DNA from: Pontiellaceae bacterium B1224
GTDB lineage: Bacteria > Verrucomicrobiota > Kiritimatiellia > Kiritimatiellales > Pontiellaceae
Assembly (NCBI GenBank): GCA_029432815.1
Contig: JAROBA010000025.1
Coordinates: 1-64,000, forward strand
DNA length: 64,000 nt
Reading direction: 5' to 3'
Position 1 is the first letter of the stretch. Each line of letters starts with the position of its first letter. Under the pieces are notes generated by a model that searched no databases, was not told the origin of the DNA, and was given only the letters and a program-made list of their open reading frames with translations. Position numbers and translations under genes: made by a program. This document shows, piece after piece, positions 2,732 to 56,729 of this stretch.

Positions 2732-5668
2732 TCATTGCCCACGTTCCACAGTAAACTCCTGAAATGCTGTATTCTCGCCACCGCCGCGCTCGTGTACCGG
2801 CGAAACGGCCCAGACGATCCATCGGAAGGTGCCCAGCTTTTGACCATCTACCGCACGCAGGGAAGCCGCAGTGAATTTGCCGGCAGTTTTGCCCGTATCG
2901 ATGGTACCCAACGGCGTGTAGTCATCCAGTTCCCAGCCCGGATCAACCACATCATTGCTGCCATACAACGTCAGCTTCTGGACCCCGCGACTTCCATTCT
3001 GATTATGTGTCCAGCTGGTAATGGCATGCACCGGCGTCGGCGCACCGAGATCTATTTTATACAGGCCGTTGTTAACCCCGTTTCCAAAGACAGCTCCAAA
3101 GTTTTCCGCCAGCTTTCCATCCACTAAGGTTTCCAACGGCTCATTATTGGTTTTCGGCTTTGCGGTTACAACAAACGAAGAAGCCCCCCTCAATGGCAGC
3201 TTGGAAAATCCTGACTCAGAATCCGCAGTATCCACCACAACGTAAGCATTTGGTTTAACCTGCACCTCTATAAGCTGCTGATTGCGGACGACCTTAAGTT
3301 TAACCGGCCCGCCCTCTTCCAGGGCTTGGAAAAGCTGATCTGTATTTTTCACCGATTTGCCATTCACACCCTGAATCAAGTCGCCGCTTTTCAGCCCGGC
3401 TTTCGATGCGACGGAATGCTGGGGCACTTTTTCAAGGACCACGCCGCCTTCGTCTTTCGACACACCAAACGCGGAAAACTCTTCGCCTTCCAGGTCCTTC
3501 AGCACGGCTCCGAACAATACGTTCTTAAACGGAGTTTCCTTAGCTTCCATTTTGCCTTTTGCCGGTTTCTTCGCTGGGCTGGCCAGCTCCGGAATAACCG
3601 GCGTTTCAGCAAGGGCCTTCAACGAAGGTTTCTTTACACCGAATTGATCCATCGGGAAATTTACGAATCCGAGCTTTAACGCCGGAGAATCGTCCCTCAC
3701 CCGAAAATCACCATGTACGGGATCGATAAATTCCGGATTCCCAAAAATTGAGTTTTTATCCCAGCCCTGTTTTGCAGCCGCTTTGATCGCCTGGTCATTG
3801 GGCATATTATAGAAATTACGATCCACCATTGTTTCATCGGTGTATGGCTCATTCATGCGAGCGGGCCGATGCCGTTCACTGAAGATGTTGGAGTAGACCT
3901 GGTCCTTACTTTTTTTAAACCAAACGTGTGGATGAAATCCTCCAAATGGGATCACATTATTCCACGCATGGCGACGATACCCCTCACGCAGCTTCAGCCC
4001 TTTACCCAGCATCAGGTTGTTGTAGATGTCATAGTTAGACGAACCATCATCCAGATCGATATCCCAGCCGTGATCGCACCGCCAGCGGCTGTCGCGAATC
4101 ACGGTAGTTTTCCAGGCATCTAGAAACGGCAGGTCAGGATCGGCATCCACTGCAGCCTGCGAAGCGGTCAAATGGTCGGAACGCCAGTACCGGTCGCGCC
4201 CCCAGGAGTTGAATGAACCGTGGTCGTGCGTTTCAAGCACCGTATCGAACACATCGCAACGCTCAATCAGATGCCCGCCGAACGCACCGTCGCCAATGTT
4301 GATGCCGGCTCGGGCGCAATCATAAATGGAACAGTCACGCACCGTAATTTCCGAAGCCATTTCAATCTGTACGCCGGCCGGCTGACGTTCAACACGGCCG
4401 ATCCCGTGAATCAAACAATCCTCAACAGTTCCAAGGCTTGGAAAATTCTGGGTCTTCGGCCCGGGTGTACGGTCGATCTTCGACAGGTCGTTTTTCTCGC
4501 CGTATTCAAACAGCGGATCATAGAGAGCATTCGGATCGCCCACAAAGCAGACGCCGCTCGCGCCCGTGTCATGAATATGACAGCCCTTCACCAGCGTACC
4601 CCGGTTATAATTATTCACAAAAACAGCATTGCCGCCGACCTGATCAAACTCGCAATCGAGAATGCTCACATCCTCGGTACCGGTCAGCATGAAGGCCCCA
4701 CCGCGGTAGATCGCCCAGTCAGAACGGACCATCTGCTCTTTTGTATCCATAAAGGTGCGTGCGGCATGGCGAACCGTGAACCCCTGAAGGGTGATGTGTT
4801 GAACCGGCGTGACTTCCGAACCCTGGAACTCGATCAGGTGGCGCAGACGCACCACTTCCACGGTGGCGTTTTTCAGGTCTGTTCCAGACATTGGAAAATA
4901 GTAAAGCGTCGAGGTTTTTGCATTGTGATACCACTCGCCCGGGGCATCGAGCTCCTCGAAAATATTTTCCACCATGCGGTGATCTTTGTGCATCCCCATC
5001 TTGCGGTTATTCTGCCAACCGCCTTCATAGGTCACTTCGCCGGAAGCATCCTTTCCGGTAATCAGATAATGGTAGCCGCCCCACCCGGAACGATGCATTG
5101 CGTGAATATAGCCCCCCGTCGGATCCGCCCAATCGGCCGCACGTTCCTTTGCAAAAGCATCCGCCGCATAGCCCTGATACGGCTCGGCCTTTTTTGCGGG
5201 ATCATAATTGGGGTAGCGCGCCATGCGCTGGTTTTTCCCGTTTATAAACAGCTGATCAATCACCAGTCCCGCCGGCGTTTTGGCCATAAAGATTCCATCT
5301 CTATAGGGCTTCCATTGCAGATCGAGTTTAGAGCCACCACTTAAAACCGCCCCGCCTTCGGTTTCGGCTTTGTAAATAATCGGGGATTTTTCGGTCCCGG
5401 AATCTTCCGGGGAGAACACCACCGTGTCGGGCAGATAATAGATGCCATCTGAAAAGTGAACGGTGATCGGTGTTTTTCCTGCATGAGGCTGTACTTTTTC
5501 CACCGCCCGGCTCATCGAGGCAATCGGCTTTTCCTGTGTCCCTGGATTTTTATCGTTGCCGCTCGGGCTGACATACAGATCCGCTGCCAGTGCAGCCGAA
5601 CAAAATGCCAGACTTCCAATCATTGGAACTGCGCGCGTGATCAGCGAATTGATTCGGGCTTTTTTCAT
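2732..5668 (-). CDS. Secreted right-handed beta-helix protein with PDZ and C-terminal F5/8-like domains
   Basis: About 978 residues from the ATG at 5668, preceded by GGAGA; an upstream in-frame Met at 5746 lacks this and would bury the signal peptide (MKKARINSLITRAVPMIG..AALA). The mature N-terminus LYVSPSGNDKNPGTQEKP is typical of parallel beta-helix glycan-active proteins (GH110-like and polysaccharide-lyase-like). Helical rungs run to about residue 690. A PDZ domain follows at about 735-815 (VSKDEGGVVLEKVPQHSVA and GDLIQGVNGKSV), then a discoidin-like beta-sandwich to the end. PDZ on a beta-helix is unusual. It is the first gene of the operon reaching the left edge, with a weak operator-like site 81 bp upstream. 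The catalytic activity is unassigned; two exact and one near copy of the window-wide palindrome also lie inside it. Confidence 0.88.
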   Translation of the reverse strand: MKKARINSLITRAVPMIGSLAFCSAALAADLYVSPSGNDKNPGTQEKPIASMSRAVEKVQPHAGKTPITVHFSDGIYYLPDTVVFSPEDSGTEKSPIIYKAETEGGAVLSGGSKLDLQWKPYRDGIFMAKTPAGLVIDQLFINGKNQRMARYPNYDPAKKAEPYQGYAADAFAKERAADWADPTGGYIHAMHRSGWGGYHYLITGKDASGEVTYEGGWQNNRKMGMHKDHRMVENIFEELDAPGEWYHNAKTSTLYYFPMSGTDLKNATVEVVRLRHLIEFQGSEVTPVQHITLQGFTVRHAARTFMDTKEQMVRSDWAIYRGGAFMLTGTEDVSILDCEFDQVGGNAVFVNNYNRGTLVKGCHIHDTGASGVCFVGDPNALYDPLFEYGEKNDLSKIDRTPGPKTQNFPSLGTVEDCLIHGIGRVERQPAGVQIEMASEITVRDCSIYDCARAGINIGDGAFGGHLIERCDVFDTVLETHDHGSFNSWGRDRYWRSDHLTASQAAVDADPDLPFLDAWKTTVIRDSRWRCDHGWDIDLDDGSSNYDIYNNLMLGKGLKLREGYRRHAWNNVIPFGGFHPHVWFKKSKDQVYSNIFSERHRPARMNEPYTDETMVDRNFYNMPNDQAIKAAAKQGWDKNSIFGNPEFIDPVHGDFRVRDDSPALKLGFVNFPMDQFGVKKPSLKALAETPVIPELASPAKKPAKGKMEAKETPFKNVLFGAVLKDLEGEEFSAFGVSKDEGGVVLEKVPQHSVASKAGLKSGDLIQGVNGKSVKNTDQLFQALEEGGPVKLKVVRNQQLIEVQVKPNAYVVVDTADSESGFSKLPLRGASSFVVTAKPKTNNEPLETLVDGKLAENFGAVFGNGVNNGLYKIDLGAPTPVHAITSWTHNQNGSRGVQKLTLYGSNDVVDPGWELDDYTPLGTIDTGKTAGKFTAASLRAVDGQKLGTFRWIVWAVSPVHERGGGENTAFQEFTVERGQ
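3317..3331. repeat. Iterated palindrome copy 1 (centre GGGCT)
   Basis: Exact TTCCA-N5-TGGAA inside the PDZ part of the beta-helix gene; read there as Phe-Gln-Ala-Leu-Glu. Confidence 0.85.
4429..4443. repeat. Iterated palindrome copy 2 (centre AGGCT)
   Basis: Exact TTCCA-N5-TGGAA in the beta-helix gene; read as Pro-Ser-Leu-Gly, a different frame from copy 1. Confidence 0.85.
4882..4896. repeat. Iterated palindrome copy 3 (centre GACAT)
   Basis: Exact copy in the beta-helix gene; read as Pro-Met-Ser-Gly. Confidence 0.85.
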
Positions 5669-5852: not shown

Positions 5853-6896
5853 CTATTTTCCCTTCCAGTCCACAATCCTGACAAAATATCCGGCCGACGG
5901 TTTGTCATCGTGGCAGGCGAGGAAGAGGTATTCCGGCTTTCCGTCCTTCCATAGAATACTGGGACGTTCGCTACGCGCTAATTCATCCCCGAAATACATT
6001 TCATTTGTCAGGTATCCTACCTCCGGTTCCCCCCAGTCAATCCCGTCCAGAGAGGTGTAAATGAGCCCTGGGCGGACTCCGCCGTTTTTGCGTTTTTTCA
6101 CTGGAATCGGATTGCCCTCCAACAGGTTCTTCACCCCCTGACGATCCTCAACAATCATGTAGTACATGTCGTTGTAATAGAAAGCGTAGGGATCCTCGAT
6201 ATCGACTTTTTGATCCGCATAGCTGATGACCGGATTGTGTTCATAGTTTACATACGGCCCTTCGATGTGATCGCTTTCGGCCATCGAAATTTCGCGGACA
6301 CTGGCTCGGCCGGTATATTGATCGGTCATCGATTTGTAATAGATTCTGAACTTGCCTTCCGGCGTCACAACAAAGGTCGGATTCGAGGCATGGACCATGT
6401 TAAACCCACCCATTTTTCCAGAGGCTGGAATGATTGGATTGAGCGAGCTTTCCGTCCAAGGCCCATACGGCGATTTGGCCGTGGCAATTCCGACTTCCTG
6501 CTTTGAGCCGTTTTCATCCTTGTAACGATTCAGCAGAAAAACCAGTACATAGGTATCGCCCACTTTGGAAACCTGCGGATTATGATAGGCCGCTTCATCG
6601 CTGACAAAAAGGTCGCCTTCCAGCGTATACGGTCCATCGACCGAATCGGCCGTCCAGTGAACTATCTTACTGTTTTCCGACCAGACACCGTCGTTGGGGA
6701 TGACGGAGTTAAAAACGTGGAGTTTACCTTCATCATCGTAGATCGGCGCCATGCCCCACGTCCAATGGTCCTCTCCGGCGGGAAGAATATAGTTGCCCGG
6801 CACCTGCGCCTCGCAAAAAGTCGACACCTCTATCCCCATAGTCTGACCGCACCCGATGGCAGTCAAAACCAAACCCAACTTCCATTTATTCATCAT
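5853..6896 (-). CDS. Secreted GH43/GH117-like five-bladed beta-propeller glycosidase
   Basis: 347 residues with an N-terminal signal (MMNKWKLGLVLTAIGCGQTMG). Repeated blade motifs are visible: HWTWGMAPIYDDEGKLHVF, YHNPQVSKVGDTYVL, NPTFVVTPEGKFRIYYKS and DIEDPYAFYYNDMYYMIVED. Such propellers use acidic residues in the central channel; the Asp/Glu in the IEDPY and early DHWTW blades are candidates, but the catalytic set was not verified. Length and pattern fit GH43 or GH117 enzymes that release terminal sugars. It is last in the operon after a GH29 fucosidase, consistent with trimming the same glycan. The exact CAZy family is uncertain. Confidence 0.75.
   Translation of the reverse strand: MMNKWKLGLVLTAIGCGQTMGIEVSTFCEAQVPGNYILPAGEDHWTWGMAPIYDDEGKLHVFNSVIPNDGVWSENSKIVHWTADSVDGPYTLEGDLFVSDEAAYHNPQVSKVGDTYVLVFLLNRYKDENGSKQEVGIATAKSPYGPWTESSLNPIIPASGKMGGFNMVHASNPTFVVTPEGKFRIYYKSMTDQYTGRASVREISMAESDHIEGPYVNYEHNPVISYADQKVDIEDPYAFYYNDMYYMIVEDRQGVKNLLEGNPIPVKKRKNGGVRPGLIYTSLDGIDWGEPEVGYLTNEMYFGDELARSERPSILWKDGKPEYLFLACHDDKPSAGYFVRIVDWKGK
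6416..6430. repeat. Iterated palindrome copy 4 (centre GAGGC)
   Basis: Exact copy in the propeller gene; read as Pro-Ala-Ser-Gly-Lys. Confidence 0.85.
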
Positions 6897-6924: not shown

Positions 6925-8451
6925 CTACTTCTTCAGCTCAATACGGAAACCGCTGACGTATTGGCTGGGCAGTTTCTTCGGCCGTTTGATTTCAAGGGCG
7001 CCCGACGTCTGCTTCCATTTAATTTTTTCATTGCTTCCCATGAGCTCAATGGCTGCAATTTCCTGCTCCAACAATCCGCCTTTCGCCAATGTTTTGATTT
7101 CGACATCATCGGTCGGCGGGGCCAGCACAAATGCATAGAGGTTCCCGTTGTTCGTCGTAAAACGGATGTCCTGCTGACAAAATGCTTTGTGGTTTTCGCC
7201 CTGACGTCCGCCTTTCATTTTCAGCGGACCTTCACCATAGATTTTCCAAGGTCTGGAACCGTAGATGCCTTCGGCGTTTATTTTTAATACTTCACCGAAA
7301 GCCGTCAGATAGGCCGCCTGATTTTCCGGCAGCGTGCCATCGCCGCGCAGCGCGACATTCATCATCACCACACCGTTTTTACTGATCGCATCAATTCCGT
7401 TTCCGATCATTACCGGGATGCTCATCCGGTTTGACGCGCCCTTCCGGTAGAACCAGCCACCGGAAACATCCGTCGCCCACATCCAGGGCTCGGGCTGAAT
7501 GTCCGCCGAACTTCCCCGCTCCAGATTATACGTGAAGGCCTTCTTGTCCAGTTTCCCATTCTTACACGAAAAGACCGTGGTCTGTTGGCCCCCGTTCTCT
7601 TTAAGGTCGCGGTTGATGTAGTCGGAGAACAGTTTAACGCCCAGGTTTTTTCCCCGTTTTTCATCCGGATACGGGCAATCGTTGTTGAACATATCGGGAT
7701 CGTATTTTTCGATAATTTCCCAACAGCGGTCAAACCAGTGCTCGTTCCAGCTGTCCTGAGCGGCGTACCCCGAAGGGTCGAAATCCATATTGATCAGCTT
7801 TCCCTCCAACGTGCCGGCTTCGTAATACTGACGCCCCGTTTTGAAGAAACGCGGCGACCAATACAGATGCGTTGAAACGCCGAACTTCATATCATGCTTA
7901 TAGGCCGCTTCTTTCCACTCCTTCAAGGTGTCGCGCTTCGGTCCCATATCGACGGAGTTCCAGGGATGGGAAGAGTCGTACATATCAAAGTTATCGTGAT
8001 GACACGCCACCGGCATAATAAAGTTGGCCCCGTTCGCCTTGAAAAATTTAACCAACGCCTCGGGATCCCAATTCTCCCCCTTGAACAGAGGGACGAGATC
8101 TTCGTATCCGAATTCCGATGGATGCCCGTACCGCTGTGTGTGGAATGCCGTAAGTTCTTCGGTCATTTTCAGCTGTCCGCCGGTCTCCCCGTCATTCGGC
8201 CCATACATGCGTCGGCCATAGTGTGAGCCGTCATTGGGCCGGTTTTCATCGGTCGCCGACGGAACCCCCCAATGCGCCCACACCCCGATTTTTCCATCCA
8301 GAAACCATTCCGGCACCTGATAGTTCTCGGCCATCGACTCCCAACTTGGTTCGACGAGGCTCACCACAGGCGCTTCAATCTGCGCTTCGCTGTTTAGGCC
8401 TGTGAAACTAAGCAACAGACCTACTGCACGGCCAATTTTAAAATTTTTCAT
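6925..8451 (-). CDS. Secreted GH29 alpha-L-fucosidase
   Basis: About 508 residues. The N-terminal signal MKNFKIGRAVGLLLSFTGLNSEA is followed by the GH29 opening WFLDGKIGVWAHWGVPS and the substrate-pocket motif PVACHHDNFDMY. The segment DPDMFNNDCPYP aligns with the nucleophile strand of GH29 (the Asp in NND), as in Thermotoga-type enzymes. The acid/base residue is not obvious; a Glu in YNLERG is a candidate. The start at 8451 was chosen because its ATG overlaps the stop of the upstream gene (ATGA), implying coupled translation; a Met four codons upstream lies inside that gene. The tight pairing with the preceding hydrolase is striking because the same two modules are fused at 27191-29764. Confidence 0.9.
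   Translation of the reverse strand: MKNFKIGRAVGLLLSFTGLNSEAQIEAPVVSLVEPSWESMAENYQVPEWFLDGKIGVWAHWGVPSATDENRPNDGSHYGRRMYGPNDGETGGQLKMTEELTAFHTQRYGHPSEFGYEDLVPLFKGENWDPEALVKFFKANGANFIMPVACHHDNFDMYDSSHPWNSVDMGPKRDTLKEWKEAAYKHDMKFGVSTHLYWSPRFFKTGRQYYEAGTLEGKLINMDFDPSGYAAQDSWNEHWFDRCWEIIEKYDPDMFNNDCPYPDEKRGKNLGVKLFSDYINRDLKENGGQQTTVFSCKNGKLDKKAFTYNLERGSSADIQPEPWMWATDVSGGWFYRKGASNRMSIPVMIGNGIDAISKNGVVMMNVALRGDGTLPENQAAYLTAFGEVLKINAEGIYGSRPWKIYGEGPLKMKGGRQGENHKAFCQQDIRFTTNNGNLYAFVLAPPTDDVEIKTLAKGGLLEQEIAAIELMGSNEKIKWKQTSGALEIKRPKKLPSQYVSGFRIELKK
7244..7258. repeat. Iterated palindrome copy 5 (centre AGGTC)
   Basis: Exact copy in the GH29 gene; read as Ser-Arg-Pro-Trp-Lys, the third possible frame. 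Confidence 0.85.
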
Positions 8452-9679: not shown

Positions 9680-11896
9680 TTACGGCTCCCGTTCCACCGT
9701 TATTTTGTAGAAGCCCTGAGCTTCCTCGTCTGCGGCCGCGTCAATAAACAAACCATCCACCAGATTGCTTCCAATCAACGCAAAACCGCCCACCAAATTA
9801 CTGGACCAATACACATTGTAGAGGCATCCATCAACCGCGGCCCATTCCAGCTGAAGGGACTCATCGAGGGTCAGACTGGAGATTTCAAACGATTCGGGAA
9901 GATTGGGATTGGTGCCGGCACTATATTCTTCGCTGTTAATCAGGTCATCACCATCGGGATTTCCTGAAGGAACTGCATTGGTGATATTGCCGAAATTCCG
10001 AAATTCCCACTGATCATCCAGACCGTCGGCGTCAGCATCCTCCGTATCCCAGGCCAGCACCGCCTCTTCGGTCGCGACATCGACCCACACATCAACGTGT
10101 TCAAATGAGCGAGTATAGACATAGCCGTCTTTGATGGGGCCGTCCAGCGGCGGCCCGAGCGGACGGCTGAACTCAGGCATCCACGACGTTTCCCAATGAT
10201 AACTTGCCGTGTGCGCAGCAACATGGTCCTGAAAAGCAAAATAGGAATAGGGTTCCGCAACAATCAGGTAGAGCGCGAGGTGATACGGCATAGCCGCCTC
10301 CATCTCCTCCTGACTGCTGGCGGCGGAGTTTTCGCCGGTTTTAAAGAAGATCATCTTCCCTTTGGATGAAGCTTCGCGCATCAATTGAATACTCGCACAA
10401 ACGGCATCCGCAACGCTTTGTCCGCTACCGCTATAAGGATAATTCCAGCGTTCCAAATAGGAGCCGTCATAAAACCGCATGTATTCCCGGCCCCCGTTGT
10501 GTCTTTCGTTTCGGATGAAATTGCCAACCATCAACTTCCCATTTGCTTCCAGCACCTGCTCGAGGGCATATTGAGTACCGATATAATCATCAACCGGATC
10601 GCCGTTCCCATCAAAGAAATAGCCGGTCGTCGGCACCAGACATTTATCAGTAAATACACCATCAATCGGATCTACCCCGTTGATGGGCTCATGGAGAATC
10701 ATCGGCAGAGCCGCCTCGTTTACCCACCAATCACGCATGTCGGCCACATCGTAATTATACCAGGGATAAAGATCCTTATGCAGGTCAACCACCTCAACCC
10801 CGTTTGAATCCGTAGTATGCCGGCTCCAGTTCCACTCATCGTATGTGGCATCCGAAGCATAGCCGCCGTAATGAAGCGAGGTATTGCGGTAAAACAGGCT
10901 CTTGATCGATGAGTCAATCGCTTTCACCCGGCTGGACGCATCAAGAATACCCTCTTCAATCGTGGAAAATCCCGCATTGTTTGCCTTTTCCCAGACAATC
11001 ACTTCATAGTTTCCGGCCATGGCTTCAATTTCAGACTGGGTCCACGCACTATTATTCCTGACGATGAGCCAGCGCGGCACGGTGTCCCACGAAAAGTCGG
11101 GATAATTGGTAAAGTTGCTTTGAGCCTCATATTCATCCAGCATATACGGTGCGACTTTGTAACCGGAATAGTCCGTTGGATCCCAGGGCACAAGCGGCCC
11201 CTTAAAACTGAATGCGATCGAGGTGATCGCCCATTCTCTGCCGGCAGCATTACTTCCTGCCCCTGTAACGATGAAGGGATCGGCGTCCGCAGCCTGAATG
11301 GCAAATGAATCTGATGCTGATTTGAAGGTGCCTGATTCCAAGCCCGTACCCAGACCGCGAATATGTTTATGGTCATACCCCGCATTCGTTTCCTTGACCG
11401 CTATCGAAGAAAAACCTTCATACGAAATGGAGCCAACGGAACAGATAATATTTTCCACACTGAACCGGAGGCTTTGTCCCGGACCAATGTCGTAATTTCC
11501 GCCCACGCCCCATGCATTATCAATATCTGTTGCATCCGAAGAAGTACCGAGGCTGCTCATCGACGACGCATTGGCATTGGTGCTGTACGTATACGCGGAG
11601 CCATCGAAACCTTCGACCCGGATGTCAAAAGTCAGCGTGTCATCCGATCCATCCGTGTCCATATCCTGAGTATAGGTTACCGAGTAGATGTAGTCGTCGC
11701 CGGACGAGGAGCGGGTACATGACAGTTGCGTTGAGCTTAAGTCGGCCCCGTTACATATCAGGTCGCCGTTCGACTGCGAGCCCGAACCTGCCCGGGCTTT
11801 TAATGTTCCAGTAATTGGAAAATATATTTTCGCCGCCGGCGTATCGGAGACAAAAAGCAAAATCATCCCCGCAAAGAATACTGCCGTCTTATTCAT
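9680..11896 (-). CDS. Secreted multidomain protein with GHL15-like hydrolase and C-terminal Ca-binding tail
   Basis: About 738 residues from the ATG at 11896, preceded by AAGGGAAAG; the signal MNKTAVFFAGMILLFVSDTPAA begins there, so the upstream 33 codons were dropped. Residues about 20-245 form a beta-rich domain also found at the C-terminus of the upstream gene (YIYSVTYTQDMDTDGSDD; GYDHKHIRGLGTGL). About 265-625 is a GHL15-like barrel starting FSWDTVPRWLIVRN and containing GVFTDK and YLERWNYPY. A calcium-loop segment DADADGLDDQWEF and GNPDGDDLINSEEY follows, then a C-terminal beta module (YNVYWSSNL...GFYKITVE) shared with other secreted giants here. It probably acts on glycans outside the cell, with the tail serving export or attachment (inference). 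Confidence 0.78.
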   Translation of the reverse strand: MNKTAVFFAGMILLFVSDTPAAKIYFPITGTLKARAGSGSQSNGDLICNGADLSSTQLSCTRSSSGDDYIYSVTYTQDMDTDGSDDTLTFDIRVEGFDGSAYTYSTNANASSMSSLGTSSDATDIDNAWGVGGNYDIGPGQSLRFSVENIICSVGSISYEGFSSIAVKETNAGYDHKHIRGLGTGLESGTFKSASDSFAIQAADADPFIVTGAGSNAAGREWAITSIAFSFKGPLVPWDPTDYSGYKVAPYMLDEYEAQSNFTNYPDFSWDTVPRWLIVRNNSAWTQSEIEAMAGNYEVIVWEKANNAGFSTIEEGILDASSRVKAIDSSIKSLFYRNTSLHYGGYASDATYDEWNWSRHTTDSNGVEVVDLHKDLYPWYNYDVADMRDWWVNEAALPMILHEPINGVDPIDGVFTDKCLVPTTGYFFDGNGDPVDDYIGTQYALEQVLEANGKLMVGNFIRNERHNGGREYMRFYDGSYLERWNYPYSGSGQSVADAVCASIQLMREASSKGKMIFFKTGENSAASSQEEMEAAMPYHLALYLIVAEPYSYFAFQDHVAAHTASYHWETSWMPEFSRPLGPPLDGPIKDGYVYTRSFEHVDVWVDVATEEAVLAWDTEDADADGLDDQWEFRNFGNITNAVPSGNPDGDDLINSEEYSAGTNPNLPESFEISSLTLDESLQLEWAAVDGCLYNVYWSSNLVGGFALIGSNLVDGLFIDAAADEEAQGFYKITVEREP
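11806..11820. repeat. Iterated palindrome copy 6 (centre GTAAT)
   Basis: Exact copy near the start of the multidomain hydrolase gene; read as Pro-Ile-Thr-Gly-Thr. Confidence 0.85.
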
Positions 11897-14268: not shown

Positions 14269-16287
14269 ATGAACTGGATTCAAAAAACCGCCATCACCGC
14301 TTTGATTGCCGGATACCTCCCCGCCGAGGCTGATCCCAGTGAAAAACCGCTGGACAAAGCTGCCCTGTCCCGATTGGAACAACGCCTAGTGGAAATTGAT
14401 TCCAGTCTCGACCAGCTCGCCCACTTCAGTCTACGCAGTGGCATAGGAGCCATTGGCTATCGATCCTATCGAACCGATATACCTGAAACAGTGGAGTGGG
14501 TTGAAGTGGATCTGGGCGCAGCATTCCCGATCAACGAAGTTGTGTTGGTGCCGACCATATGGAGGGACACCGAAAAGGGCTTCCAGGCCGATGGCTTCCC
14601 GATTGAACTCCGTGTCGTGGCCGGAACCGGGGCCGACACCAATGGTACCGTGATTGCAGAGCGGAGCGCTTCCGATCCCATGCTGCCGCGCATCGCCCCG
14701 CTCATCATTCCAACCTCTGGAACAACTGCATCGTGGATACGAATTGAGGCCACCCGTTTGTCTCCCCGTGCATTTGACGGCCGGCAAGCCTTCCAGCTCG
14801 CAGAACTCCTGGTGTTCAGCGGATCAAAAAATGTTGCCTTGCGGCGCCCCGTCAACGTTTCATCCAGTCAATCAGATGCTCCGGGTGCATGGGATAAACG
14901 ATTTCTGGTGGACGGTTTAACACCGTATCTGATGGATTCTGCAGAAGGAGCTCAAAGCCGGGCATTTGTCAGTGAAATGGGAGAACGCCCCTCCTTAATC
15001 CTCGATTTGGAAAAAGAATATTCCCTATCTCAAATTCACCTGCATGCAGTCGATCAGAGCGACACCGTTCCTCAGGCTTATTCCGGCGATCTGGGCATAC
15101 CCAGCCACCTGCAGATCGAAGGCGCTAACGAACCCGACTTTTCCGACGCCACACTCTTGCTTGATTATCACCGGGAAACCATCAACGACACCGGGCCGAT
15201 CATGATGTGGAATATTCCGGAAAAAAACTGCCGGTTCGTTCGCCTTATTGCCAGAAAAACCGGAGATGCTGCCAATATCGCCGCCGATGAATTCAGAATT
15301 GGGTTTTCAGAAATTGAACTTTTTTCCAATGGACAAAATGTTGCGCTTGGCAAATCCGTCCAGACCACCCAGAGGATCGAGAATCCCCGGCGCTCCCCGA
15401 TGACGCTAACGGATGGCAATAATCTTTATGGAAAAATCCTCCCTATTCGGGATTGGCTTAGCCAACTGGCCCGTCGCCATGATCTCGAAGCGGAACGCCC
15501 GCGCATTTCCGCAGAACTCAACCACCGATATGCCCGGCAGAAAACCAACCTCAACCGGATGAGCTGGCTGACCGCGCTGCTCGTTGTCAGTATCGTCATC
15601 ATTATTCTGCTCGAACGCCTGTACCAGCAACGCCAAGTGGCTCGAATCAAGGAACGCTTCGCGGCGGATCTTCACGACGAACTCGGCGCCAACATCCATA
15701 CGATTGCCATGCTCAGCGATATTGCACAGGCTGCTGAATCACAAGAGGAATGGCAGCAATTGCATCAGCGCATTGAGGAACTCACAGACCGGACCAGCAC
15801 CAGCATCCGCCATTTCACCAACATGCAGGAAGCCGACAACCTCTACATCGGCCTGGTGGCCGATATGCAACGCGCCGCCCAGCGAATCGGCACCAACCTC
15901 AAACACGACTTTTCAATTAAAGGCGAAGCCTGTCTTGACCGTTTAAAACCGCGTACCCGGATCGATCTGTTCCTGTTCTACAAGGAGTGTTTGGTTAACA
16001 TTTGCCGCCACTCCGGTGCGACCCAATTAAAAACCCAATTAACGGCCGATTCAAAAGTACTCTGCCTTATCATCCAGGACAACGGGCAGGGTATTCAGAG
16101 CGCCCCGCCCTCCCTCAAACGACGCGCCCGACTCCTGGGTGCAAAAATGAATATAACCACACCGGATGCAGGCGGAACGTCTATCATGTTGAGCCTCCGG
16201 ATTCGCAGAAAACTGAGGCTCAGTCAAAAGTCGAAAGGTCGAAAGTCCACTATCCCGACCATCGACTCTAGACCGTTAACGTTCTGA
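14269..16287 (+). CDS. Sensor histidine kinase with extracytoplasmic discoidin-like domains (copy 1)
   Basis: 672 residues. A signal/anchor precedes two galactose-binding (F5/8 type C-like) regions at about residues 55-185 and 195-375 (WVEVDLGAAFPINEVVLVP; LILDLEKEYSLSQIHLHAV). A membrane segment lies at about 431-449 (LTALLVVSIVIIILL). The HisKA_3 dimerisation helix holds the phospho-acceptor His in DLHDELGANIHT (about 468), then an N-box ECLVNICRHSGA (about 572) and ATP-lid motif QDNGQGI (about 602). This is the NarL/DesK class that phosphorylates a LuxR-type regulator, here encoded 23 bp downstream. It probably senses an extracellular sugar. A paralog with the same geometry is at 43149-45113. 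The C-terminal 20 residues are Ser/Lys-rich and absent from the paralog. Confidence 0.92.
   Translation: MNWIQKTAITALIAGYLPAEADPSEKPLDKAALSRLEQRLVEIDSSLDQLAHFSLRSGIGAIGYRSYRTDIPETVEWVEVDLGAAFPINEVVLVPTIWRDTEKGFQADGFPIELRVVAGTGADTNGTVIAERSASDPMLPRIAPLIIPTSGTTASWIRIEATRLSPRAFDGRQAFQLAELLVFSGSKNVALRRPVNVSSSQSDAPGAWDKRFLVDGLTPYLMDSAEGAQSRAFVSEMGERPSLILDLEKEYSLSQIHLHAVDQSDTVPQAYSGDLGIPSHLQIEGANEPDFSDATLLLDYHRETINDTGPIMMWNIPEKNCRFVRLIARKTGDAANIAADEFRIGFSEIELFSNGQNVALGKSVQTTQRIENPRRSPMTLTDGNNLYGKILPIRDWLSQLARRHDLEAERPRISAELNHRYARQKTNLNRMSWLTALLVVSIVIIILLERLYQQRQVARIKERFAADLHDELGANIHTIAMLSDIAQAAESQEEWQQLHQRIEELTDRTSTSIRHFTNMQEADNLYIGLVADMQRAAQRIGTNLKHDFSIKGEACLDRLKPRTRIDLFLFYKECLVNICRHSGATQLKTQLTADSKVLCLIIQDNGQGIQSAPPSLKRRARLLGAKMNITTPDAGGTSIMLSLRIRRKLRLSQKSKGRKSTIPTIDSRPLTF
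14708..14722. repeat. Iterated palindrome copy 7 (centre ACCTC)
   Basis: Exact copy in sensor kinase 1; read as Pro-Thr-Ser-Gly. The paralogous kinase has Pro-Cys-Asp-Glu at the aligned place, with no palindrome and no length change. Confidence 0.85.
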
Positions 16288-16310: not shown

Positions 16311-16973
16311 ATGAAACGTAAAATTAAAATCATGATGGTGGAAGACCATCCGGAATATCGCGAAACCATCGCCTTGGCACTGGAGAAGGAAAAGGACATT
16401 GAGCTGATCAGCCAGTTTGGCACCGCCGAACAGGCGCTGCGTAGCCTGCAGGACATGTCGACCCGCAAAGTCCCCGACCTGATCCTGCTCGACCTCAATC
16501 TTCCAGGTATGTCCGGAATTGAGGCAATCCCCTGTCTTAGCCAAAACCTTCCTGACACAAAAATCATTGTCCTCACCCAATCCAACAGCGAAGCCGATGT
16601 TCTGGCCGCTATCCGGGCGGGTGCTTCCGGTTATCTCCTCAAAGGCACAAAACGCATTCAGATTGCAGACGGAATCCGCATTGTGATGAACGGCGGTGCC
16701 TCGCTTGATCCCAATATTGCCGAGTATATCCTCACGACCCTGAAACACCTGCAACCAAAACCAACTCTCGAAATGGCTCTATCGGATCGGGAAATGCAAA
16801 CCCTCATTCTAATCAGCGAAGGATATGTAAAAAAAGAAATCGCCGACCGGCTCGGCGTCTCTCCATATACCGTAGCCAGTTTCATCAAGCGAATCTACGA
16901 AAAGCTCAATGTCCCGAATGCACCCTCCGCAGTAAACAAAGCCCATCTCCTCGGCCTTTTTCCGAATCGATAA
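16311..16973 (+). CDS. NarL/LuxR-family response regulator (copy 1)
   Basis: 220 residues, with GGGAGG upstream of the ATG. A receiver domain spans about 5-122 with the acidic pair in MMVEDHPE and phospho-acceptor Asp61 in LLDLNLPG; a LuxR-type helix-turn-helix lies at about 150-215 (LSDREMQTLILISEGYVKKEIADRLGVS). It should bind DNA when phosphorylated by the kinase just upstream. It is about two-thirds identical by eye to the regulator at 45110-45772, with the C-terminal half more diverged. Its stop is only two bases from the convergent stop of the DUF1593 gene, leaving no room for a separate terminator. Confidence 0.95.
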   Translation: MKRKIKIMMVEDHPEYRETIALALEKEKDIELISQFGTAEQALRSLQDMSTRKVPDLILLDLNLPGMSGIEAIPCLSQNLPDTKIIVLTQSNSEADVLAAIRAGASGYLLKGTKRIQIADGIRIVMNGGASLDPNIAEYILTTLKHLQPKPTLEMALSDREMQTLILISEGYVKKEIADRLGVSPYTVASFIKRIYEKLNVPNAPSAVNKAHLLGLFPNR

Positions 16974-16975
16974 GG

Positions 16976-18289
16976 CTACTTTTCTCCCATGGAAGAAATG
17001 TCCTTCAGTGCATTTTCATAACCGTCCTGCCAATCGGCCACGCCGCCTTTGCTGAGCAGCTGCGGGTGATATTGCCGGGAACCGATCTCTGCATAGTTTT
17101 TCCAATGATTGGAAGCGGTTTTTAAATGCTCAACCGCTGCCGCCGGATTCGACTCTTTCAGGTCGGCGGCGCGGAGCTTTTCGGCGTAATAGTTTACAAG
17201 GTGCGCCATGGCCTCAATGTCGCCCAGCGTGCGCGTCCAGGTTTTTCCGTCCGGTGGATTCATCCAATGATCTTGAGCGTCGGAATACATAAAATACGGT
17301 GTCTGCATTTCGTCATCCACGCTCACGCTTTCGTGGCGCGACATGACATCTTTCACCTTTTCTGAAGTATAGCGACCTCCCCAACCGCCCCAGAAAGGAT
17401 GCTCGGTGCTGAATAAACCTCTATTCACCAACCCGATCCATGGGATCGTTCCTCCGCCTTCCATAAAACCAACCCTTTTACCAAAGCTGCGCTCCGGATA
17501 AACGGCACCCAGCGGGCCATGATTCTTAATCACATGTTCCTGAAGCCAGTCATGCTGACCTCGTGCGGTGTAGGCATAGTCGCCCCAAAACTGCGGACCG
17601 ATGGTTGAAATATCCGTTCCGCGCGGTGAGCCCGGCCCTCCGTAGGCGTAGGTCTGGTAATTACTGCGAATCCAATGAATCTCGGGATAGGTTTTGCAAA
17701 TGAAGGCGCCGGCATTGTCCTGCGCACCGTTTTCGAAAACGCGCAGTTTTTTGACCACAGCCTGAAGCTCTTCTTTGGAGTGTGTTTGAGCATAATCATG
17801 CAGCGACTGCGCCAACGTGCTGGATCCCGCGTTCACCGCAATCCAGATCGGGCGCGGGTCATCCCTTTCAAAAACTTCAACCAGCCGTTTAGATCCTTCG
17901 CTGGACTTACCCTCTCCAACGCCGGCGATGCCATATTCCGGCTGACCGGAACAGACGATAGTCCTCAGATAATCCGGTGTATGCCAGCAATCCGAATGTT
18001 GCTGAAGATTTTCATACACCTCGGCATAGGCATCGATGATTTCATGAAAGAGCTCAGGATGTGTTACCTGCCGATATTCATCCTTCATGCCCGGATGAAT
18101 ATATTTGCCCGTCACCGCCATCAGCAGCTCGGGTTCAAACTCGTTCGAGCACATCAGCATATGAACCATCTGCTGCATTTCGTCCGGTTCACATCCCATA
18201 TCTGCCATAACCACCAGCCGCGTTCGTTCCGAAGCAAATACAATACTGACAGCACCGATCAGGCTGATGAGTATCAGACGGCTCTTCAT
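16976..18289 (-). CDS. Secreted DUF1593 nucleoside-hydrolase-like protein
   Basis: About 437 residues; the ATG at 18289 follows a strong GGAGGGAG. The signal MKSRLILISLIGAVSIVFA precedes RTRLVVMADMGCEPDEMQQ, the acidic opening motif of the DUF1593 / nucleoside-hydrolase-like fold, where Asp residues bind calcium in true nucleoside hydrolases. IWIAVNAGSSTLAQ and FMEGGGTIPWIGLVN also fit. Members are secreted and occur in carbohydrate loci of Planctomycetes, Verrucomicrobia and Bacteroidetes; substrates are unclear, probably glycosides. It is last in the operon 19954-16976. Confidence 0.82.
   Translation of the reverse strand: MKSRLILISLIGAVSIVFASERTRLVVMADMGCEPDEMQQMVHMLMCSNEFEPELLMAVTGKYIHPGMKDEYRQVTHPELFHEIIDAYAEVYENLQQHSDCWHTPDYLRTIVCSGQPEYGIAGVGEGKSSEGSKRLVEVFERDDPRPIWIAVNAGSSTLAQSLHDYAQTHSKEELQAVVKKLRVFENGAQDNAGAFICKTYPEIHWIRSNYQTYAYGGPGSPRGTDISTIGPQFWGDYAYTARGQHDWLQEHVIKNHGPLGAVYPERSFGKRVGFMEGGGTIPWIGLVNRGLFSTEHPFWGGWGGRYTSEKVKDVMSRHESVSVDDEMQTPYFMYSDAQDHWMNPPDGKTWTRTLGDIEAMAHLVNYYAEKLRAADLKESNPAAAVEHLKTASNHWKNYAEIGSRQYHPQLLSKGGVADWQDGYENALKDISSMGEK
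17100..17114. repeat. Iterated palindrome copy 8 (centre ATGAT)
   Basis: Exact copy in the DUF1593 gene; read as Ser-Asn-His-Trp-Lys. Confidence 0.85.
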
Positions 18290-20080: not shown

Positions 20081-23000
20081 CTACAGCACCTCAATTCTCA
20101 GGCGGATGAATTCGTTGGTCCTTCCGATGGTGTCGATGCGGTTGGTGACGGCTTCGTAGTCGGCGTCGAGGTTTCCAGTGATTGGAAGTTCGGTGTAGGT
20201 TCCGGTTTTCCAATCATTGGAAAGCAGGTTGGAACTGAATTCCAGTTCATAGGCCAGTTCGCCTTCGGAGCCGATGCGTCGGGCATGGACATAATCAATT
20301 GTGTCGGCGCCGCTTCCAATCATTGGAAGATAGCCGGTGTCGTTGCCGTTGATTGGATTTCCGCCGAGTGCATATTCATAGAGGTTGTTTGCGGTGTCGC
20401 TGTCCGGGTCGGCGGCGTCGGCCAGATCGGTGCCGTTCAATTCAAAGCCGTGAATCCAGTCGCCGTAGCCCCCCTGTAAATCGGTAGAGGATCCGGAAAC
20501 AATCCGGATGCGCCAGCTTTCCGTCAGATCGAACGAAGGGCGGGTGATGTTGAACACGACATCCATCGTGCCGTCGGCATTCTGCACGCCTTGATAGTCG
20601 TTATTTTCCATCACGCCCGCCGTTTCGAGGGCCACCCATGCGCCGCCCGTCCAGCGTTGCGCTTGCAGGGCAAGGCCGGATTCAATTCCCTTGAGCACAA
20701 CCGGAACGTGGCCGATGCCGCCGCTGTAGATGGTGAAGTCGGCGACCACGGCATTTTCCGATGCTTGGATTTCCAGCGGATAACTACGCAGCAGGCTTCC
20801 TTCATGCACGGCGAGATTCAGTGCAACATTATGTTGAAACTCGTCATAGACTGCGTTCCAGGCATTGGAACCATACGATGCCAGACGGCTTGTAAACTCG
20901 GCATCATAGCCCCAATAATCCGCCGATGCTTTCGGCGGCATAATGAATTCAAATTCACCCTCCACCACATCTCCGGCATTGTAGGAGCGTTCAACCGAAT
21001 CGGCGCTGAAATCGAACAGCAATTTGTCCGTGCCCCAGCTGCGCCCATAGGTATGCATGTAGACGGGGAACGGATTCCCGTTCAGCGTCGAGGAAAGGTT
21101 TAACATTCCGCGACGGCTCCGCGAAACTTTGTCGTAGGACATGACATCATCAATACTCAGCCATTGGTTGTTAAACTGCACCGGTGTGCCCTTATAGGTA
21201 TTCCCGCCCACATCAGCCAGATCAGAGGAAAGCAGTCCGCTCACATCACCGCGATAATAATTGGTGAAGTCCGGCCCGATATAATAATCCGCCGCCATCT
21301 GATGAAACACCAACCGCTCGGGCGATGTCACATTTTCAAGAAACTCATATTTGTATCCGTGGAATCGTCGATGATAGTCGCTCGTGCGCACGGCACGGCT
21401 GGAATAGGTCACACGGATTTTGTCATCGTCCGTCAAACCGGAATAGAGCACCTCCGTCATATTCGGCCCCGTCCAGAGATAGGCGGTTTTCAGCTGTTTG
21501 ATCCAGCGATATTTGTTGGCACTGTCGCGATAAATCAGATAGTCACCACCCCCTGAATTTTCGGTCCAGTTGTGGTCGGTCCCTGAATTCATCGGCGTGG
21601 TGAACGTCGGGCGGATATCATCCATGAATGCCGCACCGGCATGCAGGCAGGGATCGTAGGTACAGGATTCGCCCCATGCGCCCAATGCGCTTTCATCCCA
21701 TTTCCAGTTTTTGCCCCAGCCAATCAGGCTGAGCTGCGAATGGGAAACCGCACCCGCCCCGCCCCAATAGCCGTAAACGACGCGTAGGCGGAAACGTTTG
21801 GTTTCGCTGGCGGCCAACGGCACCATCGTGTAGCCGCGCAACCACGATCCCTGATGCACTGTGGGATTAGCAGCATCCTTATGCCAGTTCTTGGAAATCT
21901 GCACCGGAATGCCGATCGGCCGGCCATCGCTCTCCTCGCACATCAGCATAACAGTTCCCGTAATCGCCCGCGGAGTCGGCTGCTCAAAAATCAGTGGAAT
22001 ATTCTGCGCGATGCCGTCCGGGTTGGTCACCTCAATCACATATTCATCCACCCGATTGGTGTCGGCGGGATAGGAAATGCCAGCCGCCGGCACTTCCACG
22101 TAGAGTGCATACTCATCGGCATCAAACGTGGTTGCCAGTGATGCCGTTGTATCGCGGTCATAGGCATCATTGATATAATCCCCTGCATTCCACGCGGACA
22201 ATGTGGTGTCGTTCTGAGGCTGTATGGCCAGCACAGCGGAATCGCCTGCAACAACGGTTTCATGCAAAACACTTGATGGAGACACCAGACTGACCTTCGT
22301 CTGCGTTACGCCGGACACGCCCGAAAAATCCAGTTTGAACACCACGCGGTCGGCCCAGGCCGTCATTTCAAAACGCCCGGTCGCATTCAGGACATTTCCG
22401 CTGCTGTCTTCAAACACAAGCCCAAGATGATCGAACCGCTGGACAAATCGGTTGCTCTGAATCAGCCGCACCAGTTGGTTGGTGGAGTTTTGAGCTACGG
22501 CAGAGGTGCAGGTGTAATGGGTTCCGTCTTTCACAACGGACAGCGTCAGATCCGCCGGCGTAAAAACCGTGACCTCTTCGTGCAGTGCCGTGCGGTAGTC
22601 CGAACCGGCCAAGGCGTCGTAGCCCGTCAGCTCCATATCATCGCACCCCAGCCGCAAGCTGTAGTATCCCGTCTGGATGATCAGATCCGGATTGGCACGA
22701 GCAACCGTATTCGCTTCGCTCTGAGAGCGGCGGTGTTTCATTGGCGTCGGCAAACCGTATTCAAAATAAAGATAGGTATAGTTCCGATTGTTGTCGGCAA
22801 TGCCCGGTTCCGGCAGGACTTCATTTCCGTGCAGCGCAAAGACCACATCGTTTGCATCGTCTGCAATAGAATCAGTAAACGGAAGAGCTATAGAGCCGGT
22901 GGTCGATAAGTTATAAAGTCGCCCCCCGCCGACAAGGGTTCCCCCGCCGTTTGCCCGACGCCAATTGGAATAGTGGTCAGCGGCGTTGGTCGTCCAGGCG

Positions 23001-25258
23001 ATCTGAAAGGCATAGGTTCCGGCCGGCAGCAGTGTGTCAGAAAAGTCGATGGTATAATATTGCATGCTGGTCATGGAAACACCGGACATGTCGATTACTT
23101 CATGAACCATCGTTGCGCCGGGACTGCTCTCGTAATTACCGATCCAGATAGCCAAATCCTTTCCTTCGCCGGCACCAATCGTTCGATCCACAGCCGACTG
23201 AAGCGTCAACTCCGTTACGAGCGTGGGGCTCGTCAAGGTAAACGTCTGCCCGGCGGCCTGCGTATAGGATGCATCGTCGCGCACCGGCAGGCCGGTTGAC
23301 TCACTGACGGGGTTACCCAAAACAACATCATCCGTCGGATACGATGTTCCCGCATTTGAAATGCTCGCCTCCGGCAGTACAAAAGAAGGCACGTAAGCCG
23401 GAACCACGTCGGAATCCGGCGTGCCAGCCGACAGAATGCCGACATCTTCGGAACTGACTAAAAAATTATTTTCATCGATCATGTTGAATACATAGTGGGT
23501 CGTCCCCTCGGGAATGATCGCTTCAGCCATTCCGTTCTCAGTATCCAGTCGTGCATCCATGCGGAACCATTCTTCATCGACACTGCCGTTGCCGTTTAGG
23601 GTATAGATTAGATCGGCATGAACCACTTCCGCCTTGTTGGTTTCAAAAGTCACCCAGCCTGTACCATTGCTGTGCCCTTTGCTCAGCACCGCCGGGACAT
23701 TTTCTTTGTTCGTCAATGTTTTAGTTGTGGTCGGGTTATAGTGCGGCAGCCGCGCATTCACATTGGTCAGCCAGACGTTCAGTTCAGCTGAGAGCTGTGT
23801 AGCCATCCCCGTTTCAATATTCACCAAGTCAACATTCTCTTCAATATCGCTAGGCGCATTGTTGGTGTCATACAATTTATAAAGCCGGTACGGGTCTAAT
23901 GAGGAATTATCCACATAGTCATAGTTGCGGAACAGTTTCCAACCGTCTTTGCGAATCGTGCTGTGCAGCGCACCGCCATGCGGGAAATGCCAATACATGG
24001 TATCACGCACCGAGCCGTCGAAATGGGTCACCAACGTTTCATCCTGCGGATCGTTCAACAGCAACGGGCTGATGTCACAGCCGTCGAGGCGCTCCGGCAC
24101 AGGAATCTCTGCCAGCGACAACATCGTCGGATATAAATCGAGACCATTCACCATCACGTCGCTGACTTCGTTGGTTGGGACATCGGGGCCGACCACAATG
24201 AACGGCACGCGCGTTCCGCCTTCCTCCGCGCGGATTTTTCCGCGATCCAGCGGATCATTGTCGGTATAGGTTTCCGTCGCGGTTCCCTCCATGCCCCCGT
24301 TGTCGGAGGTCAGGAAAAGATAGGTGTTTTCAATCAGCTTATGCCCCGGCCAACGCGGGTCATCCGTCTCTTCCAGATATTGGATAATTCGCTGAATGTT
24401 AAAATCGAACTCTTCCACCATGGCACCGTAATACGGGTTGATCTGCGCATCGGCCGAAAGATCCTCCATTCCATCCAGCGGCCAGGAATAGCCCATCTTC
24501 AACGCATATTTTTCCAGCAGCCGCTCGGTCCGCGTCTGGATGGGAGAATGGACATACCACGCGGCGTAATAGCTGAAAAACGGCACATTCGAGGAAACGG
24601 CCATGTCCAAAAAATCGATGATGTCCTGCGTGGTCTGATCAAACGCAAATCCATTCGTTGAAGCCAGCCCGTCGAGGTCCTGCAGTTGGTATTCATCCGC
24701 TGCATTCGTGGTGGCAAAGGTGCTCAACCGATCACCGACCTTCTGTGAAATTCCCAGATCATGTTTTGAAAAGTCAAAGCCCTGATCCGTTGGTTGCGGA
24801 AAAGAATTATGATTGACCGCCACATGCCATTTGCCGCTGTGTCCACTCAAGTAGCCGTAAGGTTTCAGCGCCTCGGCGATGGAGATCTCTTCCAGCTCCA
24901 TACGGCCCGTGTAGTACGGATCCATCATGCGGAACGACTGTGTGTAGGGCTTCGGACACTCCCCGCCTTGAACCGAGGTTTTTCCACGCGCCGGAAAACG
25001 ACCGCTCAGGATTCCGTAGCGGCTGGGTCCGCAGACCGGAGCCGGAGAATAGCCCTGCGTGAAACGGACCCCTTCCGTTGCCAGCGCGTCCATGTATGGC
25101 GTTTCATACACCGCATTCGCATCGACATCATAGCAACCGACATCCTGCCAGCCGAGATCATCAGCCAGCAGAATTACAAAGTTTGGCTTTTCCGGCCGCT
25201 GCGCGTTTGCTGCCACAGCAAACAAAAGTGTTAAACCACTTAAAATCCATTTATTCAT
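20081..25258 (-). CDS. Giant secreted sulfatase with large unknown C-terminal modules
   Basis: About 1,725 residues from the ATG at 25258 (AGAGG upstream; signal MNKWILSGLTLLFAVAANA). The sulfatase domain covers about 20-510, with NFVILLADDLGWQDVG and Cys76 in CGPSR for formylglycine. Residues about 525-630 form a beta-domain shared with the sulfatase at 29777. About 650-850 is the same module as the N-termini at 11999 and 34990 (LAIWIGNYES; PAGTYAFQIAW). About 860-1600 is a very large region with no family recognised (KNWH, GSWLRGYTMVPL, YGYWGGAGAVSHSQLSLIGW). The last 110 residues are a Ca-loop tail (DPDSDTANNLYEYALGGNP...) shared with 34990 and 40007. Ordinary sulfatases are 450-600 residues. 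It has its own operator-like site upstream. Confidence 0.9.
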   Translation of the reverse strand: MNKWILSGLTLLFAVAANAQRPEKPNFVILLADDLGWQDVGCYDVDANAVYETPYMDALATEGVRFTQGYSPAPVCGPSRYGILSGRFPARGKTSVQGGECPKPYTQSFRMMDPYYTGRMELEEISIAEALKPYGYLSGHSGKWHVAVNHNSFPQPTDQGFDFSKHDLGISQKVGDRLSTFATTNAADEYQLQDLDGLASTNGFAFDQTTQDIIDFLDMAVSSNVPFFSYYAAWYVHSPIQTRTERLLEKYALKMGYSWPLDGMEDLSADAQINPYYGAMVEEFDFNIQRIIQYLEETDDPRWPGHKLIENTYLFLTSDNGGMEGTATETYTDNDPLDRGKIRAEEGGTRVPFIVVGPDVPTNEVSDVMVNGLDLYPTMLSLAEIPVPERLDGCDISPLLLNDPQDETLVTHFDGSVRDTMYWHFPHGGALHSTIRKDGWKLFRNYDYVDNSSLDPYRLYKLYDTNNAPSDIEENVDLVNIETGMATQLSAELNVWLTNVNARLPHYNPTTTKTLTNKENVPAVLSKGHSNGTGWVTFETNKAEVVHADLIYTLNGNGSVDEEWFRMDARLDTENGMAEAIIPEGTTHYVFNMIDENNFLVSSEDVGILSAGTPDSDVVPAYVPSFVLPEASISNAGTSYPTDDVVLGNPVSESTGLPVRDDASYTQAAGQTFTLTSPTLVTELTLQSAVDRTIGAGEGKDLAIWIGNYESSPGATMVHEVIDMSGVSMTSMQYYTIDFSDTLLPAGTYAFQIAWTTNAADHYSNWRRANGGGTLVGGGRLYNLSTTGSIALPFTDSIADDANDVVFALHGNEVLPEPGIADNNRNYTYLYFEYGLPTPMKHRRSQSEANTVARANPDLIIQTGYYSLRLGCDDMELTGYDALAGSDYRTALHEEVTVFTPADLTLSVVKDGTHYTCTSAVAQNSTNQLVRLIQSNRFVQRFDHLGLVFEDSSGNVLNATGRFEMTAWADRVVFKLDFSGVSGVTQTKVSLVSPSSVLHETVVAGDSAVLAIQPQNDTTLSAWNAGDYINDAYDRDTTASLATTFDADEYALYVEVPAAGISYPADTNRVDEYVIEVTNPDGIAQNIPLIFEQPTPRAITGTVMLMCEESDGRPIGIPVQISKNWHKDAANPTVHQGSWLRGYTMVPLAASETKRFRLRVVYGYWGGAGAVSHSQLSLIGWGKNWKWDESALGAWGESCTYDPCLHAGAAFMDDIRPTFTTPMNSGTDHNWTENSGGGDYLIYRDSANKYRWIKQLKTAYLWTGPNMTEVLYSGLTDDDKIRVTYSSRAVRTSDYHRRFHGYKYEFLENVTSPERLVFHQMAADYYIGPDFTNYYRGDVSGLLSSDLADVGGNTYKGTPVQFNNQWLSIDDVMSYDKVSRSRRGMLNLSSTLNGNPFPVYMHTYGRSWGTDKLLFDFSADSVERSYNAGDVVEGEFEFIMPPKASADYWGYDAEFTSRLASYGSNAWNAVYDEFQHNVALNLAVHEGSLLRSYPLEIQASENAVVADFTIYSGGIGHVPVVLKGIESGLALQAQRWTGGAWVALETAGVMENNDYQGVQNADGTMDVVFNITRPSFDLTESWRIRIVSGSSTDLQGGYGDWIHGFELNGTDLADAADPDSDTANNLYEYALGGNPINGNDTGYLPMIGSGADTIDYVHARRIGSEGELAYELEFSSNLLSNDWKTGTYTELPITGNLDADYEAVTNRIDTIGRTNEFIRLRIEVL
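20173..20187. repeat. Iterated palindrome copy 9 (centre GTGAT)
   Basis: Exact copy in the giant sulfatase tail; read as Pro-Ile-Thr-Gly. First of three copies within about 155 bp. Confidence 0.85.
20208..20222. repeat. Iterated palindrome copy 10 (centre ATCAT)
   Basis: Exact copy 20 bp from the previous one; read as Ser-Asn-Asp-Trp-Lys. Confidence 0.85.
20314..20328. repeat. Iterated palindrome copy 11 (centre ATCAT)
   Basis: Same 15 bases as copy 10 but read in another frame as Pro-Met-Ile-Gly, which shows the constraint is on DNA and not protein. Confidence 0.85.
20856..20870. repeat. Iterated palindrome copy 12 (centre GGCAT)
   Basis: Exact copy in the giant sulfatase; read as Ser-Asn-Ala-Trp-Asn. 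Confidence 0.85.
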
Positions 25259-43049: not shown

Positions 43050-43148
43050 CGCGCAAACCATTAGATGAAATACGCTTCCAAGCATTGGGAAATCTTTCCA
43101 TTCAATGGTGAATGGACGGGCATTGGCTTCACAGGTATAACTATCAAT

Positions 43149-53454: not shown

Positions 53455-53469
53455 TTCCAATGTCTGGAA
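53455..53469. repeat. Iterated palindrome copy 19 (centre ATGTC, intergenic)
   Basis: Exact copy between tRNA-Gly and the sulfatase; a one-mismatch copy follows at 53499-53513. Confidence 0.85.
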
Positions 53470-56463: not shown

Positions 56464-56729
56464 CATCTCCCCAGCTGTACGGTCCGATCAATCTAATCGA
56501 TTTAAAAAATGAATGCCGCGCACTAAAACATGCAGAGCCCAAAGGGTCAGGTTTAAAGAGTAAACATTTATAACCGTGGCTGGAGCGGCACCGGCCTCGG
56601 TGACCTGCAGACGAGAGGATTTAAGAAAAGGCCCATGCGTTTCCCAGAAACCTTATCACGCCATCCAGTCGCGCCGTAATCGCGTAATCTGGACAACGGA
56701 CTAGCCTTTGAGGTTTTAAGTTCGGCATT

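Follow-up and report, generated by a model that had tools for sequence, protein, structure and literature searches.

The window, i.e., the whole 64-kb stretch of DNA that was analysed, contains a gene for a putative sensor kinase of 672 amino acids (kinase 1; 14269..16287, + strand), which has no Pfam match at 1e-5, but in which an HDELG-type dimerisation motif, ERFAADLHDELGA, can be read. It adjoins a gene for a LuxR-type response regulator with Response_reg and GerE domains (16311..16973, +). Inside the kinase 1 gene lies the palindrome TTCCAACCTCTGGAA (14708..14722). A paralogous kinase with 53% amino acid identity (kinase 2; 43065..45113, +) is without the site at the aligned place and carries a one-mismatch site, TTCCAATGATCGGAA, elsewhere (44204..44218). 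Two sulfatase paralogues also carry copies: an exact site, TTCCAGATATTGGAA, lies at 30764..30778 in the gene at 29777-31627, and a one-mismatch site, TTCCAGATATTGGAT, at 24371..24385 in the gene at 20081-25300. The two pairs of kinase and LuxR-type regulator (14269-16973 and 43065-45772) belong to a large paralogous family, with 26 matching pieces in the genome.

The initial annotation had claimed that kinase 1 codes for IIPTSGTTASW where kinase 2 codes for IIPCDETSASW, with neither palindrome nor gap, and that the near copy at 44204 (FSND) stands opposite FSNG of kinase 1; both claims held in a codon-level alignment. The claim that the sulfatase copies at 30764 and 24371 differ by one base held as well, and the difference is an arm base. 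Because the kinases are old paralogues, however, this pair alone is weak evidence on the mode of origin. The site at 14708 is kept as TTCCAACCCCTGGAA in the orthologue of G008, the nearest relative found, and is therefore older than that split and arose by in-place change. Among about 30 kinase-family matches that were aligned, the TxGTT context is common to the G008 orthologue only.

The palindrome is one of 23 exact matches to TTCCA-N5-TGGAA in the window, where 42 matches with at most one mismatch stand against 2.75 +/- 1.9 expected. Most of the other exact sites are in coding DNA: 3317..3331, 4429..4443, 4882..4896, 5614..5628, 6416..6430 and 7244..7258 (the last two identical in G008), 11806..11820 (five arm substitutions and no indel in G008), 17100..17114, 20173..20187, 20208..20222 and 20314..20328 (all three kept in the G008 homologue, the first and the third with a changed centre), 20856..20870, 30082..30096 (in a sulfatase gene), 34612..34626, 37615..37629, 47501..47515, 51297..51311, and 59474..59488, which has a one-mismatch partner at 59458. 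Three are intergenic: 53455..53469, beside a tRNA gene (53362-53433, -); 56729..56743, between divergent genes; and 59293..59307, 67 bp before a called gene.

Across the genome (5.38 Mb), TTCCA-N5-TGGAA occurs 2,237 times, i.e., about once per 2.4 kb, vs three times for a reversed-pattern control, and one-mismatch copies are likewise in excess. Only a spacer of 5 is enriched, with 109 copies in 218 kb, whereas the other spacers from 0 to 13 give 0-2 copies each. The finer consensus is TTCCAR-NSN-YTGGAA, with A or G at position 6, T or C at position 10, and a G/C centre in 93% of sites; the commonest form, TTCCAAT-S-ATTGGAA, has a 7-1-7 geometry. A distance of 10 bp, roughly one helical turn, separates the two half-sites TTCCAR, and the base at position 6 is independent of that at position 10 (AT 57, AC 22, GT 21, GC 5). 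No sequence is conserved past about 2 bp in the flanks, and the core CCAN5TGG, once sites and near-sites are set aside, is not clearly enriched. In G000, where coding and intergenic DNA were separated with gene calls from a simple script, 78 of 109 sites fall in coding DNA and use all three reading frames without disruption (29/32/17). About a quarter of the sites fall in intergenic DNA, which makes up some 10% of the sequence, a roughly threefold enrichment. No published description of the motif was found in the open-access literature searched, a search that leaves out most subscription journals. The motif appears to represent an undescribed genome-wide DNA code across much of a bacterial class.

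The way in which sites are gained and lost was followed in pairwise orthologue alignments of G000, G008, and G016 (72-101 kb each, 76-79% nucleotide identity), which gave 225 site comparisons, 170 coding and 55 non-coding; these counts pool three overlapping genome pairs and are not independent events. In the coding comparisons, 118 sites are conserved, 46 differ by substitution only, and indels of 1-7 bp are present in the other 6, so that 46 of the 52 non-shared coding sites are explained by substitutions alone. Among the non-coding comparisons, 40 are conserved, 6 are substitution-only, and 9 are gapped; the sole 15-bp gap belongs to a longer unaligned intergenic stretch. No exact insertion or deletion of the site as a unit was seen in the 225 comparisons. 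Sites are thus gained and lost by point substitution in place. The pattern that the initial annotation had named as refuting its reading, consistent deletions of 15 bp or more in orthologues without the site, was looked for and is absent, and the preference for mutation plus selection over a mobile repeat is supported by these comparisons. Gene conversion, which had been offered as an alternative, is not needed, because the differences do not extend beyond the site and the flanks have diverged as much as usual.

The same alignments show that the sites are under strong selection. Between G000 and G008, identity is 0.86-0.99 at arm positions (most at 0.94 or above), vs 0.68-0.82 in the N5 spacer and about 0.78 in the flanks, and half-sites are conserved in 82% of cases within a site vs 44% for isolated TTCCA/TGGAA. 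At third codon positions, arm identity in the three pairs is 0.86, 0.91, and 0.78 vs 0.57, 0.55, and 0.54 for all third positions. Since the arms are conserved even there, protein constraint is not the explanation, and selection is seen at synonymous positions.

The motif is confined to the class to which the window belongs, the Kiritimatiellae. Among 388 surveyed genomes of the phylum, more than 50 copies were found only in this class, in about a dozen families, and no genome of another class exceeded 30 copies. The window's genus spans copy numbers from 5 to 2,297, and TTCCARNNNYTGGAA is present 1-4 times in four congeners of 1.1-1.3 Mb. Phased pairs, for which named species genomes were partially scanned, turned up mostly in metagenome-assembled genomes (MAGs) labelled Kiritimatiellae, Lentisphaerae or Verrucomicrobia, besides a few without a label and single bins under other names. 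That the window's genome belongs to the Kiritimatiellae is an inference from this distribution.

In many lineages of the class, the sites form arrays in fixed helical register. Neighbours within 200 bp lie 31 or 32 bp apart in G048 (80 contiguous kb plus one 20-kb stretch) and G057 (contigs chosen for holding arrays), with a single spacing of 29. A scan over centre-to-centre distances of 20-32 bp, in which any gap from 5 to 17 was allowed, found 61 pairs in G049, all of them at 31/32 bp, since the narrower pattern likewise gave 61. The same scan found 41 pairs in G050, one at 31/32 bp and 40 below 31 bp, and those of the 40 that were inspected all lie at exactly 21 bp. No pairs of the reversed control occurred in the array scans. 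Altogether, spacings of 21 bp or 31/32 bp, i.e., two and three turns of 10.5 bp, were observed in G028, G029, G048, G049, G050, G052, and G057; loci fetched with the 31/32-bp pattern have secondary peaks at 21/22 and 41/42 bp and almost nothing between. In the window's genus, neighbouring sites are not strictly phased, and sites are mostly single and in coding DNA. The 17 site clusters in 100 kb of G048 all lie between genes and occur in every gene orientation.

Linkers within the arrays of G048, G052, and G057 are hardly more alike than linkers of different arrays, so that recent tandem duplication did not produce these arrays. In a mixed set of other MAGs, linkers of one array resemble each other more, with 14 of 79 within-array pairs at a similarity of 80% or more, partly because the set mixes genomes. 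Many contigs of G057 start or stop at an array (L218, L222-L225), as if arrays break assembly. Sites of G050 mostly have TTCCAY half-sites, and this form in place of TTCCAR was noticed at the loci L312 (G050), L003, L009, L057, and L058. It is possible that lineages with TTCCAY have a changed specificity of the recognition protein, which is itself inferred.

The most recurrent gene beside arrays is pheS, encoding the alpha subunit of phenylalanyl-tRNA synthetase. Of the 28 genomes that could be evaluated, 16, spread over families f1, f2, f9, f10, f12, and f17, have between one and five sites with at most one mismatch in the 200 bp upstream of pheS: G000 has three (-101, -58, and -29), G049 four at 31/32 bp, and G050 five at 21 bp. 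Such sites are absent in 7/7 genomes with at most 7 sites, and also in five with 41-201 sites; the motif-poor genomes have no comparable array of alternative palindromes at pheS. Judged by eye, pheS of the window's genus has a sigma-70-like promoter (TTGCCA ... GATAGG), which is common also to several genomes without the sites. In G000, one site fills the promoter spacer and one follows the promoter. Because the putative promoter and the beginning of the message are both overlapped by sites, the placement fits a repressor, and repression of pheS is probable, although inferred from sequence alone. A search of the pheS neighbourhood for a constant DNA-binding gene found none. Directly upstream of pheS in G000 (L302, about 7595), a divergent pair resembling an antitoxin and a PIN-domain (VapC-like) toxin was noticed by eye.

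The explanation considered likely (probability about 0.8) is that an unidentified dimeric protein, an oligomerising regulator or a nucleoid protein, uses the sites as operators; binding is inferred, without a binding experiment. Independent variation of the half-sites and the lack of any preference for RNA pairing point to a protein dimer as the reader of the sites. In this view, each copy would be a double-stranded DNA site for one dimeric protein that contacts two TTCCAR half-sites and leaves the central bases free, save for the G/C at the centre. Sites would come and go by point substitution and be retained through selection on binding, and the protein would work across the genome, either in global regulation or as a nucleoid-associated protein. 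Dimers may, in many lineages, sit side by side on one face of the helix, two turns (21 bp) or three turns (31/32 bp) apart, and an inferred oligomer with such same-face spacing could bend or wrap the DNA. At pheS, sites over the putative promoter and the message start would probably cause repression.

Among known types of binder, the Lrp/AsnC "feast/famine" proteins match best, but this is a hypothesis only and is more likely to fail than to hold. A member of this family is present in 52 of 58 genomes surveyed, nearly always as one copy, and every genome with more than 250 sites has a match; none was found in G002, G006, and G009 (168-241 sites, 59-89% completeness). Presence of the gene is not discriminating, because it is also found in genomes without the motif (G010, G015, G022, G045, and G053). 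No Lrp/AsnC gene was encountered in 3.5 Mb of sequence searched. Although Lrp proteins frequently regulate their own genes, none of the 31/32-bp pairs recorded in G049 lies on the contig that carries the Lrp gene. HTH_8/Fis-like proteins were also considered, but they occur in motif-rich and motif-poor genomes alike and are not discriminating.

Several alternative explanations can be considered. The sites could be a DNA-uptake signal, i.e., a word favoured by biased uptake in natural transformation and built up through molecular drive by point mutation, as for the uptake sequences USS/DUS, for which mutation and uptake bias have been argued to be enough for accumulation (PMC1939737). The density of about one per 2.4 kb, the presence of both coding and intergenic copies, the one-mismatch excess, and substitution in place would all fit. 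However, the palindromic build of two half-sites, the strict phasing at 21 or 31/32 bp, and the recurrence at pheS are unexpected of an uptake word, and 17/17 clusters in 100 kb of G048 are intergenic; this explanation is unlikely.

Also unlikely is a word of the HIP1 type that is maintained by an orphan DNA methyltransferase together with repair bias, although no methylase family was examined. HIP1 is likewise described as a palindrome iterated throughout a class and lost from particular lineages (PMC4390886), and the changed half-site TTCCAY in some lineages would agree with it. The core CCAN5TGG, however, lacks clear enrichment beyond sites and near-sites, and methylation does not account for helical phasing or for the promoter-proximal placement at pheS.

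Sites of a Fur-family regulator, which binds 15-bp 7-1-7 boxes, are very unlikely: TTCCAAT-S-ATTGGAA has this geometry and a Fur-like gene lies 5' of the pheS array in G049, but no Fur match was found in the motif-rich G048 (1,808 sites, 96% complete), nor in G040, G030, and G050. There is hardly more support for a mobile or tandemly duplicating repeat (REP/MITE-like), for which high copy number, arrays, and some look-alike linkers in other MAGs (14/79 within-array pairs at 80% or more) could be cited; the flanks are unconserved, precise indels are missing from 225 comparisons, linkers are not duplicated in G048, G052, and G057, and all reading frames are used undisrupted. An RNA-level hairpin with a role in stability or termination, to which the perfect inverted repeats and the roughly threefold intergenic enrichment in G000 might point, is all but excluded, since A-C mismatches (83) are no rarer than G-U pairs (67) on the coding strand, inner Watson-Crick pairs (78) stay under the expected 96, compensatory changes at positions 6/10 or 7/9 are not favoured, phased arrays occur in all gene orientations, and the sites have no Rfam match.

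The operator reading can be set beside known systems. Sites of the Lrp family are clustered (semi)palindromes that line up on one face of the helix, two or three turns apart, and the DNA is wrapped (PMC2995911); those of BarR are 15-bp semi-palindromes (PMC10201364). The motif shares with Lrp/AsnC operators (e.g., those of Ah-BarR) the clustered 15-bp sites and the same-face spacing of two or three turns, and, if the inferred binding holds, wrapping and amino-acid-linked targets may be common to both; as a 15-bp palindromic site, TTCCARNSNYTGGAA, with independent half-sites, it matches what is expected of an Lrp/AsnC-type dimer site. Unlike such operators, it comprises thousands of near-perfect, selection-held sites in coding DNA, has a G/C centre in place of the AT-rich centres of BarR sites (PMC10201364), occurs as isolated single sites in the window's genus, and has no binder shown. 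With HIP1 of cyanobacteria (GCGATCGC), it shares the character of a highly iterated palindrome found class-wide, lost in some lineages and altered in others (PMC4390886), and the defining property of a genome-wide iterated palindrome is satisfied (2,237 vs 3). It differs in being an interrupted 15-bp palindrome with helically phased arrays and in having no methylase link shown. On present evidence, the element meets the full definition of neither HIP1 nor an Lrp operator; by analogy, its scale may be compared to that of HIP1 (PMC4390886) and its geometry to that of Lrp operators.

USS/DUS are likewise genome-wide, both coding and intergenic, and built up by point mutation (PMC1939737), but the motif is palindromic, has phased arrays, and has a promoter-proximal core target. 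The sites of matS/MatP and Noc are palindromic sites of one protein that are spread over the chromosome, genes included. Compared to these, the motif has far more copies, and its arrays keep a fixed helical register.

A bolder reading is that the Kiritimatiellae own a sequence-addressed system of chromosome organisation, in which one dimeric protein would act at thousands of high-information operators; this is tentative, and the balance tips slightly against it. With the same reservation, many of these operators would lie in genes and be kept at synonymous positions, registers (two or three turns) and half-sites (TTCCAR or TTCCAY) would be specific to families, and pheS would be a shared core target. 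The motif gives a direct readout of selection at synonymous sites. The range from 5 to about 2,300 copies within one genus and the shift in spacing from 21 to 31/32 bp between families amount to a natural experiment on the ways in which the sites of global regulators or nucleoid proteins are acquired, retained, and lost.

In G108, which belongs to another class of the same phylum, the motif is absent and the control pattern AAGGTNNNNNACCTT occurs 55 times, so that this pattern is possibly another over-represented palindrome. Eleven contigs of the viral collection IMG/VR (L352-L363) carry phased palindrome arrays, one of them (L353) with six sites at spacings of 31, 31, 22, 31, and 31; they could stem from Kiritimatiellae phages, integrated or free, or represent DNA of the host.
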